Assembly (NCBI GenBank): GCA_021809435.1 | Contig: JAKBAD010000011.1 | Coordinates: 1-59,065, forward strand | DNA length: 59,065 nt | Origin: Pseudomonadota bacterium | Lineage (GTDB): Bacteria; Pseudomonadota; Alphaproteobacteria; Acetobacterales; Acetobacteraceae | Reading direction: 5' to 3' | Part shown: positions 3,764 to 10,023 of the stretch, piece by piece | Layout: each line of letters opens with the position of its first letter | Numbering within the stretch: position 1 is the stretch's first letter | The notes under the pieces: model-generated | Databases searched by the model: none | The model's input: the letters and a program-made list of their open reading frames with translations, nothing else | What the model was told of the DNA's origin: nothing | Program-made: the position numbers and the translations under genes

Positions 3764-3819
3764 ACCTTTCCCATTGCCAAACCTTTCCCCCCCGCGTTAA
3801 GCTGCCCCTTATCCTCATC

Positions 3820-3999
3820 AGACGCAGGAGAGAGCGGGTGGAAACCCCGCCGCCGAAGGCGCAACCGGCCCCCGGAACCGCTCAGGCAAAAGGGCTGCGA
3901 ACGGGTTACAGGATACTCTGGAAAGCCGGCTGAAACGCCGCACCGACGGGGTCAAGAGCATGAAAATGCTCGAATCTCTCAGGTCCAAAGACAGAGGGG
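3820..3999 (+). promoter_or_regulatory. Tandem glycine riboswitch (gcvT-type), two aptamers
   Basis: Aptamer 1 (about 3824-3895) has GCAGGAGAGAGCGGG, the core CCGAAGGCGCAA, then GCTCAGGCAAAAGGGC. Aptamer 2 (about 3914-3998) has ACTCTGG at its start, CACCGACGGGGTCAA in the core, a GAGCATGAAAATGCTC hairpin, and the closing TCTCTCAGGTCCAAAGACAG. These are the conserved blocks of the glycine riboswitch family, and the short linker between aptamers is typical of the cooperative form. It lies 130 bases before the amidohydrolase gene, on the same strand, and so should control the 4129-9032 operon by glycine. Such riboswitches normally precede gcv or glycine transport genes. Confidence 0.93.
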
Positions 4000-4000
4000 G

Positions 4001-4037
4001 GTCAGGTCCGCCGGCTGTTACAGGCCGGCAAACTGAC
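4001..4037 (+). promoter_or_regulatory. Hairpin directly after the riboswitch, candidate expression platform
   Basis: Nested inverted repeats: GTCAG 4001-4005 with CTGAC 4033-4037, and inside them GCCGGC 4010-4015 with GCCGGC 4024-4029. No U-run follows, so it is not a classic intrinsic terminator. It could compete with aptamer 2 or shape the leader. The role is inferred from position only. Confidence 0.4.
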
Positions 4038-4128
4038 GAATGGGGGGGGTATTTGAACATCATCATCCAGGCCCAGCGCCGCCGCGCCGCCCTCATGCCC
4101 GTTCCCCCGGCCTGAAGGAGCAAGCCCG

Positions 4129-4884
4129 ATGCCCGACCTCTACGCCCCGCTCATCGAGCGCACCACCCACCCGGCCAAGCCGCCCGTGCTGCTGGTGTGC
4201 GAGCATGCCAGCAACCACATCCCGCCCGCGTTCGCCAATCTCGGCCTGCCCCAGTCAACCCTCCAAACCCACATCGCCTGGGACCCAGGCGCCCAGGGTG
4301 TCGCCCGCGCGCTCCGCGCCGCCCTCAACGCCGATCTGGTGGCCAGCACCGTCTCGCGCCTGCTCTACGACTGCAACCGCCCCCCCGAATCCCCGGGCGC
4401 CATGCCCGAAACCTCCGAAATCTACGAAATCCCCGGCAACAAGGCGCTCACCGCCGCCCAGCGCGCCGCCCGCACGGCCGCCATCTACACCCCCTTCCGC
4501 GCCGCCCTGGCCGCATTGATGGACCAGCACCCAACTGGCATCATGGTCACCGTGCACAGCTTCACCCCCATCTATCACGGCCAGCCACGCCGCTGCGAAA
4601 TCGGCGTCCTGCACGACACCGACACCCGCCTCGCCGATGCCCTGCTCGCCCAGCCCCCGGCCGAATTCCCCCACAAGCTGGAGCGCAACGTCCCCTACAG
4701 CGCCTCCGACGGCGTCACCCACACCCTCAAAACCACCGCGGTGGCGCGCGGCTGGCCCAACGTCATGCTCGAGATCCGCAACGACCTCATCGCCACCGCC
4801 CCCCAGCAGCACACCATGGCGCTCGCCCTGGCGCAGCTGCTCACCAAAGCCATCAAGACCCTGAAAGAGGCTGGAAATGTCTGA
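4129..4884 (+). CDS. N-formylglutamate amidohydrolase family protein
   Basis: 251 residues, near the usual family length. LLVCEHASNHIP near residues 22-33 is the conserved metal-binding block, followed by a TVHSFTPIY block around residue 140 that also carries a metal-ligand histidine, and MLEIRNDLI near 210. The family hydrolyses N-formyl-L-glutamate to formate and glutamate in histidine breakdown, but no hut genes are nearby. Here it is first in a glycine-riboswitch operon and its stop overlaps the next start by 8 bases, so its true substrate may be another N-acyl or gamma-glutamyl amide. A good ribosome site AAGGAG lies 11 bases before the ATG. Confidence 0.85.
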   Translation: MPDLYAPLIERTTHPAKPPVLLVCEHASNHIPPAFANLGLPQSTLQTHIAWDPGAQGVARALRAALNADLVASTVSRLLYDCNRPPESPGAMPETSEIYEIPGNKALTAAQRAARTAAIYTPFRAALAALMDQHPTGIMVTVHSFTPIYHGQPRRCEIGVLHDTDTRLADALLAQPPAEFPHKLERNVPYSASDGVTHTLKTTAVARGWPNVMLEIRNDLIATAPQQHTMALALAQLLTKAIKTLKEAGNV

Positions 4885-6241
4885 CGAACTGCTCAAAACC
4901 ATCACCGCCAAAGTCGAATCCGGCGAGATCGACACCATCCTGGTCTGCCTCGTCGACATGCAAGGCCGCCTGATGGGCAAGCGCTTCCACGCGCATAATT
5001 TCATCAAGCACGCGGTCCACGAAACCCATTGCTGCAACTACCTGCTGGCCACAGACCTCGAAATGTCCACCCCCGGCGGCTACCGCTCCAGCTCATGGGA
5101 GAACGGCTATGGCGACTACACCATGCACCCCGATCTCTCGACCTTCCGCCTCATGCCCTGGCTCGAAGGCACCGCCATGGTGCTCTGCGATCTGGTCGAT
5201 CACCACACCCACGCCCCCGTGCCCCATTCGCCCCGCCAAATCCTCAAGCGCCAGGTCGAGCGCCTGCACGCCCTTGGCGGCTATGAGGCGATGATGGCCA
5301 CCGAGCTGGAGTTTTTCCTGTTCGAAGGCAGTGTCGATGAAAACCGCAAGCGCGGCTTCCAAAACATCACCCCCCTCGGCGGCTTTTCCCAGGATTACCA
5401 CATCTTCCAAACCACCAAGGAAGAAGGGGTCATGCGCAAGCTCCGCAACGCCCTCTATGCCGCCGGCATCGAGGTCGAGTGCACCAAGGGCGAAGCCGAA
5501 ATGGGGCAGGAGGAGCTAAACCTCCGCTACGGCCCGGCACTGTTATGCGCCGAGCAGCACACCATCGCCAAGCACGCCACCAAGGAAATCGCCTGGCAGC
5601 AGGGGGTGAGCGCCACCTTCCTGCCCAAATGGCGCGCCGACAAGGTGGGCTCGTCGAGCCACATCCATTGCTCCTTGTTCAAAGACGGCGCCAACGCCTT
5701 CCACGATCCCGCCCGCCCCCTGGCCAAATCCGCGCTGATGGATCATTTCGTGGCCGGGCTACTCCATTACGCCCCCGAATATACCTGTTTTCTGGCGCCC
5801 TACGTCAACAGCTACAAGCGTTTCCGCAAAGGCACATTCGCCCCCACCAAGGTCGCCTGGTCGGTCGATAACCGTACCGCGGGCTTCCGCCTGTGCGGCG
5901 CCGAGTCAAAGGGCGTGCGCATCGAGTGCCGCATCGCCGGCTCGGACGTAAACCCCTACCTCGCCCAGGCCGCGCTGCTGGCGGCGGGCATCAAGGGCAT
6001 CGAAAAACAGCTCGCCCTGCCGCCCGAGGCGCAAGGCGATCTCTACGAGCAGAAACATATCAACGAAATCCCCCGCACGCTGCGCGCCGCCACCGAAACG
6101 CTCCGCCGCTCCGAGGTGCTGCGCGAGGCCATGGGCGATGACGTGATCGATCATTACGTCCGCGCCGCCGAAGTCGAGCAGGAAGAGTTTGACGCCGCCG
6201 TGACGGATTGGGAAATCAAGCGTGGTTTTGAAAGGTGCTGA
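4877..6241 (+). CDS. Glutamine-synthetase-family ligase (probable gamma-glutamyl amine ligase)
   Basis: 454 residues. The N-terminal beta-grasp domain (about 1-110) precedes the catalytic domain. Visible metal and ATP residues: ATELEFF (E143, E145), KGEAEMGQEE (E206-E213), SSHIHCS (H262, H264), and NSYKRFRKG with the NRTAGFR block near 332. It lacks the adenylylation-loop style of type I nitrogen-assimilating GlnA and resembles GS-like enzymes such as PuuA or GlnA4 that join glutamate to amines. It overlaps the amidohydrolase and is followed by an aldehyde dehydrogenase, which is the order of gamma-glutamylated amine breakdown. The substrate is not determinable here. Confidence 0.85.
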   Translation: MSDELLKTITAKVESGEIDTILVCLVDMQGRLMGKRFHAHNFIKHAVHETHCCNYLLATDLEMSTPGGYRSSSWENGYGDYTMHPDLSTFRLMPWLEGTAMVLCDLVDHHTHAPVPHSPRQILKRQVERLHALGGYEAMMATELEFFLFEGSVDENRKRGFQNITPLGGFSQDYHIFQTTKEEGVMRKLRNALYAAGIEVECTKGEAEMGQEELNLRYGPALLCAEQHTIAKHATKEIAWQQGVSATFLPKWRADKVGSSSHIHCSLFKDGANAFHDPARPLAKSALMDHFVAGLLHYAPEYTCFLAPYVNSYKRFRKGTFAPTKVAWSVDNRTAGFRLCGAESKGVRIECRIAGSDVNPYLAQAALLAAGIKGIEKQLALPPEAQGDLYEQKHINEIPRTLRAATETLRRSEVLREAMGDDVIDHYVRAAEVEQEEFDAAVTDWEIKRGFERC

Positions 6242-6242
6242 C

Positions 6243-7619
6243 ATGAAAGAACTGACCTGTATCTCCCCCATCGATGGCGCGGTGGTGGCCAAACGCCAAT
6301 CCGCCACGCCCGAGGCCGCCATCGCCAAGGTGGCCGCCATGCGCAAGGCGCAAAAAGCCTGGGCCGCCCGCCCGCTGGCCGAGCGCGTCGCCCTGGTGCG
6401 CAAAGCCACCGAAATCATCGGCGGCCAGACCGAGCGCATGGCCCGCGAGCTGGCGCTGCAAATGGGCCGGCCCATCCGTTACGGCGGCGAGTTCCGCGGC
6501 TTCAACGAGCGCGTCTCCTATATGTGCGACATCGCCGAAGCCTCGCTCAAGCCCATGGTCATCGAAGACAGCCCGACCGCGCTCCGCCAGATCGCGCGTG
6601 AGCCGCTGGGCGTGGTGCTGGTCATCGCCCCCTGGAACTACCCCTACATGACCGCCGTCAACACCATCGCCCCGGCGCTGGTCGCGGGCAATGTCGTGCT
6701 GCTCAAACATTCCGAGCAAACCCTGATGGTCGGCGAGCACATGGCCGAAGCCTTCCACGCCGCGGGCATCCCGGCCGATGTGTTCGACAACATCTTCCTC
6801 GACCATGCCGGCTCCGCCGCGCTCATCTCCGGGCGCCATGTCAATTTCGTCAATTTCACCGGCTCGGTGAAGGGCGGCGCCGCCATCGAGCAGGCGGCGG
6901 CTGGCACCTTCATCAACGTCGCCACCGAGCTCGGCGGCAAAGACCCCGCCTATATCCGCCACGATGCCAATCTCGACGCGGCGGTGGATGGCGCCATGGA
7001 TGGCGCCATGTTCAATGCCGGCCAGTGCTGCTGCGGCATCGAGCGCATCTATGTCCATGAGAGCCTCTACGACGCCTTCGTCGAAAAAGCCGTCGCCTGG
7101 GTCAAGGCCCTCAAGCTCGGCAACCCGCTCGATCAAGACACCACCATCGGCCCCATGGCCAATATCCGCTTCGCCCGCACGGTGCGCGAGCATATTGCCG
7201 AGGCCGTGGCCCAGGGCGCCATCGCCCACATCCCCACCATGCCGGCCGATGACGGCGGCGCCTATGTCACGCCGCAAATCCTCACCAACGTCACCCACGC
7301 CATGAAAGTGATGCGCGAGGAAACCTTCGGCCCCGTGGTCGGCATCATGAAGGTCAAGGATGACGAGGAAGCCATCGCGCTGATGAATGACAGCGATTTC
7401 GGCCTCACCGCCTCCCTCTGGACCGAAGACACCAAAGCCGCCGAGGCCATCGGCGCCCGGCTCGAAACCGGCACGGTCTTCCAAAACCGCTGCGACTACC
7501 TCGACCCCGCCTTGTGCTGGACCGGCTGCAAAGACACGGGCCGCGGCGCCGGCCTCTCGGTGCTCGGCTATCTGGCGCTCACCCGGCCCAAATCCTACCA
7601 CCTCAAGCGCCAGCTCTAA
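6243..7619 (+). CDS. NAD(P)-dependent aldehyde dehydrogenase
   Basis: 458 residues from ATG 6243, chosen because it directly follows the ligase stop (6241) and begins MKELTCISPIDG; an upstream in-frame start at 6222 would overlap the ligase. The cofactor domain has APWNYPY (130-135) and FTGSVKGG (205-212), the general base is in ATELGGKD (E229), and the nucleophile is C263 in FNAGQCCCG. Three cysteines in a row there are slightly unusual. By context it would oxidise an aldehyde made from the ligated amine to the acid, supplying a substrate for the amidohydrolase. The family is certain; the substrate is inferred. Confidence 0.92.
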   Translation: MKELTCISPIDGAVVAKRQSATPEAAIAKVAAMRKAQKAWAARPLAERVALVRKATEIIGGQTERMARELALQMGRPIRYGGEFRGFNERVSYMCDIAEASLKPMVIEDSPTALRQIAREPLGVVLVIAPWNYPYMTAVNTIAPALVAGNVVLLKHSEQTLMVGEHMAEAFHAAGIPADVFDNIFLDHAGSAALISGRHVNFVNFTGSVKGGAAIEQAAAGTFINVATELGGKDPAYIRHDANLDAAVDGAMDGAMFNAGQCCCGIERIYVHESLYDAFVEKAVAWVKALKLGNPLDQDTTIGPMANIRFARTVREHIAEAVAQGAIAHIPTMPADDGGAYVTPQILTNVTHAMKVMREETFGPVVGIMKVKDDEEAIALMNDSDFGLTASLWTEDTKAAEAIGARLETGTVFQNRCDYLDPALCWTGCKDTGRGAGLSVLGYLALTRPKSYHLKRQL

Positions 7620-7637
7620 GCGCCCGGCGGCATCGGT

Positions 7638-9032
7638 ATGTTCATCTCCAGCTTCGAGATCTTCAAGCCCGGCATCGGCCCCTCGTCATCCCACACGATG
7701 GGGCCGATGATCGCCGCCGTCCGCTTCCTCGCCAGCCTGCGCGAGGCGGCGGGGCAGGGGGGTAATCCGCCCACCCGCCTCACCGTCACGCTGCACGGCT
7801 CGCTGGCCTTCACCGGCAAGGGCCACGGCACCGACCGCGCCGTGGCCCTTGGCCTGCTGGGCTTCACCCCCGATACCCTCGACCCCGACGAGGCCGAGGG
7901 CGCGCTCACCTTGTTGCGCGCGCGCCAAACCCTCACGCCCCCCGGCCTGCCCGTGCTCCATTTCTCCCCCGAGCCCGACATCATCTTCGATTACGGCCCG
8001 CCATTGCCCGAGCATCCCAACGGCCTGGTGTTTCGCGCCTGGGCGGCGGATGACACGCTCTGCCTCGCGCTCACCTATGTCTCCGTCGGCGGCGGCTTCG
8101 TGCAAACCCTGGCCGAATTCACCGCCGCTGCGTCAGGCGCGCCGCCTGAAGCGCCCGGCCCCGCCTATCCCTACCCGTTCCGCAGCGCCGCCGAGATGCT
8201 GGCCATGGGCAAGGCGTCAGGCCACTCCATCGCCGCCATGATGCGCGCCAACGAAGAGGCCCACGGCATCACCGACCTCGATGCCGGGCTCGACCGCATT
8301 TCAGAGGCCATGACCGCCTGCATCGCGCGCGGCCTCACCCGCGAGGGCATCCTGCCTGGCGGCCTCCATGTCCGCCGCCGCGCCAAATCCATGTATGAAA
8401 CCCTCCAGCGCCAGCGCCAGACCAACCGCCAGCCCCCCCACGCGGTCAATGACTGGATCAGCGTCTATGCCCTGGCGGTGAACGAGGAAAACGCCGCCGG
8501 CGGGCGCGTGGTCACCGCCCCCACCAACGGCGCGGCGGGCACCATTCCGGCGGTGCTGCGCTACTGGCAAACCCAGTGCGATGACGTCACCGACGCCAAG
8601 CGCCGCGATTTCCTGCTCACCGCCGCGGCCATTGGCGGGCTCATCAAGCAAAACTCCTCCATTTCGGGCGCCGAGGTCGGCTGCCAGGGCGAGGTCGGCT
8701 CCGCCGCCGCCATGGCCGCCGCCGGCCTGTGCGCGGCTTTGGGCGGCACCAACGCCCAAATCGAAAACGCCGCCGAAATCGCGCTCGAACATCATCTCGG
8801 CCTCACCTGCGACCCCGCCGGCGGCCTTGTTCAGGTGCCCTGCATCGAGCGCAACGCGCTCGGCGCCATCAAGGCCGTCTCCGCCGCCTCACTCGCCCTC
8901 CTCGAAGACGGCAGCCACTTCATGCCGCTCGATAATTGCATCCGCGTCATGCTCCAAACCGGACACGACATGAACCAGAAATACAAGGAAACCTCCACCG
9001 GCGGCATCGCGGTCAACCTCCCCGAATGCTGA
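7638..9032 (+). CDS. sdaA: L-serine ammonia-lyase (single-chain, iron-sulfur type)
   Basis: 464 residues, full length for the one-chain form that fuses beta and alpha domains. The N-terminus [20 protein letters not shown] is characteristic. The alpha domain carries TAPTNGAAG near 293, [18 protein letters not shown] near 340 and [15 protein letters not shown] near 395, whose cysteines hold the [4Fe-4S] cluster that activates serine. The enzyme converts L-serine to pyruvate and ammonia in the cytoplasm. It starts 18 bases after the dehydrogenase and ends the riboswitch operon. Together with serine hydroxymethyltransferase (elsewhere) it would drain glycine through serine to pyruvate. Confidence 0.95.
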
Positions 9033-9241
9033 CCGCCTAAACCTTTCCTGCATTACCAAAAATGGTTCGAAATTTTGTGAGCTATAGTGCGCGCCACCTC
9101 AGCGGCGCCGGAATAAAAGCCGCGTTCAATGCCTGGGCATACACTCGCTGCACGATGAGCGGGGGCATGACCTGCGGCGGCAGGTTTGGTGATGACAATG
9201 ACACTACATCCGTGCTAAAAAGCCGGTGCAGGAGATATATC

Positions 9242-10023
<782 letters not shown>

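Follow-up and report, generated by a model that had tools for sequence, protein, structure and literature searches.

An apparent copy of the gcvT glycine riboswitch before a putative gamma-glutamyl-ethanolamine operon in a member of the Acetobacteraceae

The gamma-glutamyl-ethanolamine pathway is known from Chromohalobacter salexigens, Agrobacterium tumefaciens and Phaeobacter MED193 (PMC10132767), and a corresponding GlnA4 pathway was proposed for Streptomyces (PMC6529630). Its enzyme families, which include PF00171 and PF05013, are tabulated in a section of PMC9397018. The Phaeobacter operon, of the order RpiR-GGAH-EtoVWX-ligase-aldehyde dehydrogenase (ALDH)-iron-dependent alcohol dehydrogenase (FeADH), was raised on the lipid headgroup phosphatidylethanolamine, and its EtoX binds ethanolamine with a Kd of 7.9 uM (PMC10132767). 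The structure of Csal_0678 has ethanolamine held by Glu220 (PMC12410723, from which the ligand of structure 4uab was also taken). As to glycine riboswitches, passages of PMC3766115 call serine genes rare in their regulons, and work on S. griseus, as cited in a passage of PMC12674515, describes a switch before glycine-degradation genes that raises expression.

The stretch analysed here, referred to as the window, comprises 59,065 nucleotides and is contig C9 of the 12-contig, 2.65-Mb genome G000 of a member of the Acetobacteraceae (G000 denotes the window's own genome, other G labels genomes of relatives, C labels contigs of G000 and L labels extracted loci). It displays a tandem glycine riboswitch followed by genes for a protein of the N-formylglutamate amidohydrolase family (FGase), a glutamine synthetase-like (GS-like) ligase, an ALDH and the serine ammonia-lyase SdaA. 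We consider it about two-thirds probable that this is an acquired operon for most of the gamma-glutamyl-ethanolamine pathway, controlled by the glycine riboswitch and thus switched by its own product.

The operon leader and the gcvT riboswitch

Only two Rfam matches were found when the window was scanned with cmscan at gathering threshold, both to RF00504 (gathering score 32; Table 1) and both upstream of the same-strand operon, of which FGase is the first gene. A preliminary description, made from the letters alone, had announced a tandem glycine riboswitch, and the covariance search confirmed it; riboswitch and operon are present, although the element starts at ~3815 and not at 3820. Reading frames and matches to Pfam and TIGRFAM profiles, against which window proteins were scored, also agreed with the four genes named there and with the lack of a glycine-cleavage gene within the operon. 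FGase and ligase reading frames overlap by eight bases, while 18 bases separate SdaA from the ALDH, whose probable ATG is at 6243 (its profile scan was run from 6246). The sole PDB relative found for FGase was 2odf (Atu2144) and the best one for the ligase was 5dm3. Four RF00504 matches were counted in G000, namely the window tandem and a second tandem at C3:196600-196790, directly before gcvT.

Window positions 3807-4014 (plus strand) were 95 % identical (199/209) to this gcvT leader. All 93 bases of aptamer 1 were the same in both, and the two aptamers together agreed at 184 of 190 positions, compared with 177 of 190 for the gcvT copy of genome G162 and 76-83 % identity for 14 other gcvT copies from 13 genomes (the ends of five rows were placed by eye, with the G153 and G174 copies excluded). 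G162 displays the riboswitch on its own operon as well. Its operon aptamers differed from those of the window at three of 190 positions and were nearest to the gcvT copy of G000 (185/190), agreeing with the gcvT copy of their own genome at 178 of 190. In a FastTree phylogeny, the two operon copies paired (0.913) inside a clade that held the gcvT copies of G000 and G162 (0.975). Aptamer 2 displayed a paired A-U for G-C exchange in one stem, as read from the alignment, and with aptamer 1 unchanged the differences from the G000 gcvT copy keep the predicted RNA structure. A hairpin with GTCAG and CTGA[CT] arms was encountered in all ten leaders compared, and between this hairpin and the TTG none of 2000 shuffles aligned with the gcvT leader of G000 as well as the G162 operon leader did. 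The sequences suggest that the operon leader likely stems from one copying event within the lineage. Given the close match between this leader and that of gcvT in G000, the operon, acquired and catabolic, appears to have taken over a riboswitch that responds to its product.

RF00504 matches occurred in 34 of 38 genomes of the genus. Seventeen of 20 stretches with such loci, from 17 genomes, had the riboswitch before gcvT, and L148 ended with its contig. A non-gcvT context was displayed by G173 and G155 (L146:6973-8488, L157:805-2352), where a glycine riboswitch preceded a gene resembling flavin adenine dinucleotide-dependent D-amino-acid dehydrogenases. In other genera of the family, six of 11 riboswitch stretches (L028, L030, L032, L034, L037 and L038) had no match to GcvT at E 1e-15 and may therefore precede other genes.

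Table 1. Features of the operon and its leader, in window coordinates
Feature	Position	Strand	Evidence
Possible sigma-70-like promoter: TTGCCA, 17-base spacer, TTAAGC	3774-3802	+	By eye; both hexamers also in G162
Glycine riboswitch aptamer 1 (RF00504)	3815-3907	+	62.4 bits, E 1.4e-10, model 1-94 of 94
Glycine riboswitch aptamer 2 (RF00504)	3908-4004	+	52.1 bits, E 7.5e-8, model 1-94 of 94
Hairpin GTCAG..GCCGGC..GCCGGC..CTGAC, likely expression platform	4001-4037	+	Arms common to genus gcvT leaders
G-run (Shine-Dalgarno-like) and TTG start, counterparts of those of gcvT	4042-4055	+	Leader alignment
Putative 20-codon leader open reading frame (ORF), stop 4113-4115 abutting the FGase Shine-Dalgarno	4053-4115	+	Open in G000 and G162
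FGase Shine-Dalgarno AGGAG	4116-4120	+	
FGase family, likely gamma-glutamylglycine amidohydrolase	4129-4884	+	PF05013, 139 bits
GS-like ligase, likely gamma-glutamylethanolamide synthetase	4877-6241	+	PF00120, 331 bits; tree
ALDH, likely gamma-glutamyl-aminoacetaldehyde dehydrogenase	6243-7619	+	PF00171, 408 bits
SdaA, one-chain L-serine ammonia-lyase	7638-9032	+	TIGR00720, 570.9 bits (cut-off 345.1)

The promoter call is weak, since a consensus promoter scan of the leader found no site at its threshold. Translation of the leader ORF is suggested by two near-identical sequences, and open frames of such a length are not unusual where DNA is GC-rich. Just 3' of the operon (9062-10023), a TacA-like antitoxin gene (PF08681) is followed by a GNAT acetyltransferase gene (PF13508); these likely form a TacAT-type toxin-antitoxin pair.

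Related operons and kinship of the ligase

Ligase matches at E <= 1e-100 were encountered in 26 of the 38 genomes of the genus, five of which (G000, G162, G170, G167 and G161) displayed the window type at an identity of at least 85 %. The preliminary description had called for the same gene order with a riboswitch elsewhere; it was found in G162 (locus L138, 95.7 % identity over 5350 bases), and in no other genome. G167 displayed, on one strand, the order permease-FGase-GS-ALDH-FeADH-GlyA-SdaA with no riboswitch there. Compared with it, the operons of the window and G162 lack permease, FeADH and GlyA, the ALDH being followed by SdaA at the short distance given above. G170 displayed GS-ALDH-FeADH and no riboswitch there (L139 gave one chance-level aptamer match of 13.4 bits); FGase was not found in the 19 kb examined. 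The three genes of G170 stand beside a choline/ethanolamine-kinase-like gene (PF01633) and two oxidoreductase-like genes (L139:3261-12622). G161 displayed permease-GS, also without a riboswitch there, its contig ending inside the ligase.

Comparison of G000 with G162 showed purifying selection on all four operon genes, with dN/dS values of 0.21 (FGase), 0.05 (GS), 0.07 (ALDH) and 0.23 (SdaA), that of gcvT being 0.19. The dS values of FGase, GS and ALDH (0.06-0.13) were lower than those of SdaA (0.21) and gcvT (0.26), a hint of recent exchange or recombination between the two lineages.

Within the family, nine of 150 genomes (the window's own included) matched the ligase at E <= 1e-100; apart from the window operon itself, these matches were 44-57 % identical. 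The nearest relatives of the ligase beyond the genus belonged mostly to Rhodobacterales and not to its own family; that of Salipiger abyssi was 72 % identical, and the best 80 of 589 relatives from genome loci ranged from 65 to 73 %. A ligase tree of 63 rows (44 of these 80 genome loci, thinned for speed, with nine plasmid, four genus, three family and three paralogous copies) was built by a quick method, with no bootstrap and with one long-branched family row. The genus copies grouped with those of Salipiger and Nioella (SH-aLRT 100), and this group lay among ligases mainly from Rhodobacterales, while copies of the family fell outside, which suggests horizontal gain.

The window ALDH was 56-74 % identical to ALDHs located beside related ligases. 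Ligase, PF00171 ALDH and PF05013 amidohydrolase thus co-occur in one operon, as the gamma-glutamyl-ethanolamine pathway requires. As judged from homology, the ligase likely acts on ethanolamine, and the operon enzymes would belong to this already published route and not to a new pathway.

Seventy-two related ligase clusters had enough flanking sequence for their neighbours to be called, by identity thresholds of our own. FeADH was present in all 72, FGase in 68, ALDH in 67, RpiR in 61 and subunits of a tripartite ATP-independent periplasmic (TRAP) transporter in 59. In the Chromohalobacter cluster (L103), the TRAP binder was 90-92 % identical to Csal_0678, and the glutamate matching Glu220 was invariant in the 40 binders aligned, of 69 listed; a binder fold predicted without relatives reached a pLDDT of 37.5. 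The Salipiger cluster displayed the order FGase-GS-ALDH-FeADH-GlyA-SdaA. Genes of the beta-hydroxyaspartate cycle (bhc), which consumes glycine, adjoin the ethanolamine clusters of Aminobacter (L043:7001-15354) and Paracoccus pantotrophus (L044:7001-14134) and lie within 10 kb of that of Roseovarius mucosus (L101:635-12797). A glycine riboswitch with gcvT was located directly 3' of the cluster FeADH in a metagenome-assembled genome of Rhodobacteraceae (L060:12713-14134), and a riboswitch-gcvT pair within ~5 kb before the ethanolamine cluster of L071.

Proposed mechanism and rival explanations

According to the proposed scheme, the ligase would join glutamate and ethanolamine, an FeADH encoded elsewhere would oxidise the amide to the aldehyde, the operon ALDH would oxidise the aldehyde to gamma-glutamylglycine and the FGase-family enzyme would split the latter into glutamate and glycine. 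GlyA, found once in G000 (C4:137885), would then convert glycine into serine, and SdaA serine into pyruvate. The preliminary description had guessed at a gamma-glutamyl amine leading to glycine. Homology favours this with ethanolamine as the amine, though for a pathway that was already published; GlnA4 was the correct one of its two analogies, that with PuuA/PuuC having failed, and its glycine-serine-pyruvate steps gained support from the G167 operon, which adds GlyA and SdaA. The alcohol dehydrogenase that it placed elsewhere now has a candidate, albeit one beside a paralogous ligase. The novelty lies in the riboswitch, whose origin as a copy of the gcvT leader the preliminary description had not recognised.

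This candidate, C4:613551-614633, belongs to the Fe-ADH family PF00465 and displays a His-rich motif, seen by eye. It was 50-51 % identical to the enzyme of the Salipiger cluster, compared with 76-77 % for the FeADHs of G167 and G170 and 35 % for the other match of G000 (C4:158255). It directly follows a second GS-like ligase, 47 % identical to that of the window, and stands with a divergent PF13520 amino-acid permease (C4:612216-614633; L025:5478-9709). The same second ligase, FeADH and permease were also encountered in G068, G162 and G167; the stretches examined yielded no match for ALDH or FGase, and in G162 the permease is cut by the contig end. No uptake gene, TRAP or permease, was present in the window operon, and a PF13520 permease occurs at the C4 locus and in the G167 operon. 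The C4 enzyme is a natural candidate for the gamma-glutamylethanolamide dehydrogenase, which would act in trans, and the neighbouring permease for uptake. G000 also displayed a second FGase-family gene (C8:107343, 37 % identical).

As for regulation, the duplicated gcvT leader, with hairpin, Shine-Dalgarno-like stretch and start codon, would have been placed before the native ribosome-binding site of FGase. The leader is predicted to bind glycine, which most likely raises expression, in parallel to the glycine cleavage system; as glycine likely does so in gcvT switches, the operon's product would turn the operon on. This ON direction is most likely by analogy. Translation of the leader ORF, presumably coupled to that of FGase, would relay the effect of the switch to the start of FGase, 70-odd bases away. 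Translational control is the simpler reading because the G-run and start of gcvT directly follow the hairpin and no terminator-like site occurs in the two leaders scanned. A bolder version, which we hold tentatively and at somewhat less than even odds, describes the whole gcvT leader as a portable cassette that was duplicated onto the acquired operon and takes the place of the protein regulator seen in related clusters, glycine acting through the coupled, gcvT-derived leader peptide; the cassette would sit where the relative has its uptake gene.

Several observations weigh against a glycine-switched ethanolamine operon. Neither the window operon nor that of G162 includes a PF00465 FeADH, while 72 of 72 well-covered clusters have one; the pathway chain therefore rests on an FeADH beside a paralogous ligase, and this enzyme may serve the second ligase only. 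Scans found no terminator-like site in the operon leader or the gcvT leader, and the operon leader has no counterpart of the short T-run located past the hairpin of the G000 and G162 gcvT leaders, nor any U-run on the 3' side of its hairpin. The fold of the whole leader was as stable as those of its shuffles (z 0.02; gcvT leader, z -1.37), and past the TTG the likeness to gcvT was weak, 27 of 2000 shuffles aligning equally well. The riboswitch stands on the operon in two genomes only, three of the five operon-bearing genomes of the genus being without it. Glycine-consuming neighbours within 9 kb of the ligase are single cases and no rule among the 72 clusters (GlyA 1, SdaA 1, BhcC 2, BhcB 3, GcvT 1). 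An aptamer model made from 15 sequences, those of the window among them, was run on 89 related clusters of other taxa and found none before a ligase cluster; its two matches at E <= 1, L060 and L071, both precede gcvT near a cluster. The riboswitch as a general companion of ethanolamine clusters is thereby ruled out. Applied to 44 ligase loci taken from whole-genome searches, the same model recovered only G000 and G162, besides two weak matches (16.8 and 13.6 bits), these loci spanning 1.5 kb per side, so that a riboswitch farther upstream would escape, and three of 33 class-level genomes with a match having given no locus.

The confinement to two genomes also suits the view that the riboswitch is a recent insertion, a mere bystander to FGase, or an OFF switch that limits glycine over-production, as do the absence of a terminator-like site and the position of FGase, 124 bases past the aptamers and with its own Shine-Dalgarno. 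We regard this as unlikely given the small divergence between the two operon copies, the paired exchange in aptamer 2 and the kept hairpin stem; moreover, according to passages of PMC6944388, glycine riboswitches that precede genes for glycine breakdown raise expression. The missing FeADH could instead mean that the operon was repurposed after losing it, the ligase now taking a different amino alcohol, or else an amine or amino-aldehyde for which no alcohol dehydrogenase is required, with glycine not the main product. FeADH is missing in both riboswitch operons, yet is kept in G167, G170 and all well-covered relatives, and the lower identity of the C4 enzyme and its place by another ligase and a permease fit this account. 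Against it stand the low dN/dS of ligase and ALDH, the retention of FGase and SdaA, the gain of a glycine sensor and the existence in the genome of an Fe-ADH family gene with the His-rich motif, which leave repurposing quite unlikely.

It seems improbable that the riboswitch primarily serves SdaA, on the way from glycine through serine to pyruvate, with the ethanolamine genes merely lying between: although passages of PMC3766115 already place sdaA under glycine riboswitches in beta-proteobacteria and two mycobacteria, SdaA is the last gene here, more than 3.6 kb past the aptamers, and G167 has the four genes in a row without a riboswitch. Such a role is nonetheless compatible with the favoured explanation, a glycine-switched ethanolamine operon. 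A polyamine (Puu-type) operon or an ammonia glutamine synthetase (GlnA) would share the broad GS-like and ALDH families, but the scores were far under the curated cut-offs (ligase 225.4 of 650 bits for GGputSyn and 244.9 against 429.15 for TIGR00653; ALDH 207.7 of 850 for PuuC) and the hydrolase is of FGase type. Both candidates were rejected, and this explanation is very improbable.

Comparison with described systems

The combination appears to be new, as a known riboswitch class placed on a known pathway through what looks like copying of the gcvT leader; we did not find it described, and in the open-licence literature, as covered by titles, abstract beginnings and some passages, no report joined a glycine riboswitch to this operon. 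If true, it would represent a clear natural swap of regulators, in which an RNA takes over from the protein regulator that most related clusters have nearby. It would also add a genomic argument, one that does not depend on biochemistry, for glycine as the end point of the gamma-glutamyl-ethanolamine route, and provide a testable pair within one cell, with near-identical riboswitches before glycine-making and glycine-breaking genes.

The putrescine route of PuuA, PuuC and PuuD glutamylates, oxidises and hydrolyses. The window operon shares this chemical logic, whereas its ligase and ALDH are far under the Puu cut-offs and an FGase-type hydrolase takes the place of PuuD. The sdaA regulons of beta-proteobacteria and mycobacteria resemble the window in having SdaA under a glycine riboswitch, while the passages of PMC3766115 concerned name no gamma-glutamyl-amine genes and the words "ethanolamine" and "glutamine synthetase" are absent from its main text. 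Like the gcvT riboswitch of G000, the window leader has the hairpin, the Shine-Dalgarno-like stretch and the TTG as well as nearly all aptamer positions; it differs in standing before another operon, in the lost T-run and in that its start opens a short leader ORF. Rhodobacterales clusters provide the nearest ligase relatives and an FGase..GS-ALDH order like that of the window operon. With the gamma-glutamyl-ethanolamine systems in general, the operon shares the ligase, ALDH and FGase families; unlike them, it is devoid of FeADH, TRAP and RpiR, and displays in addition SdaA and, in front, a glycine riboswitch.

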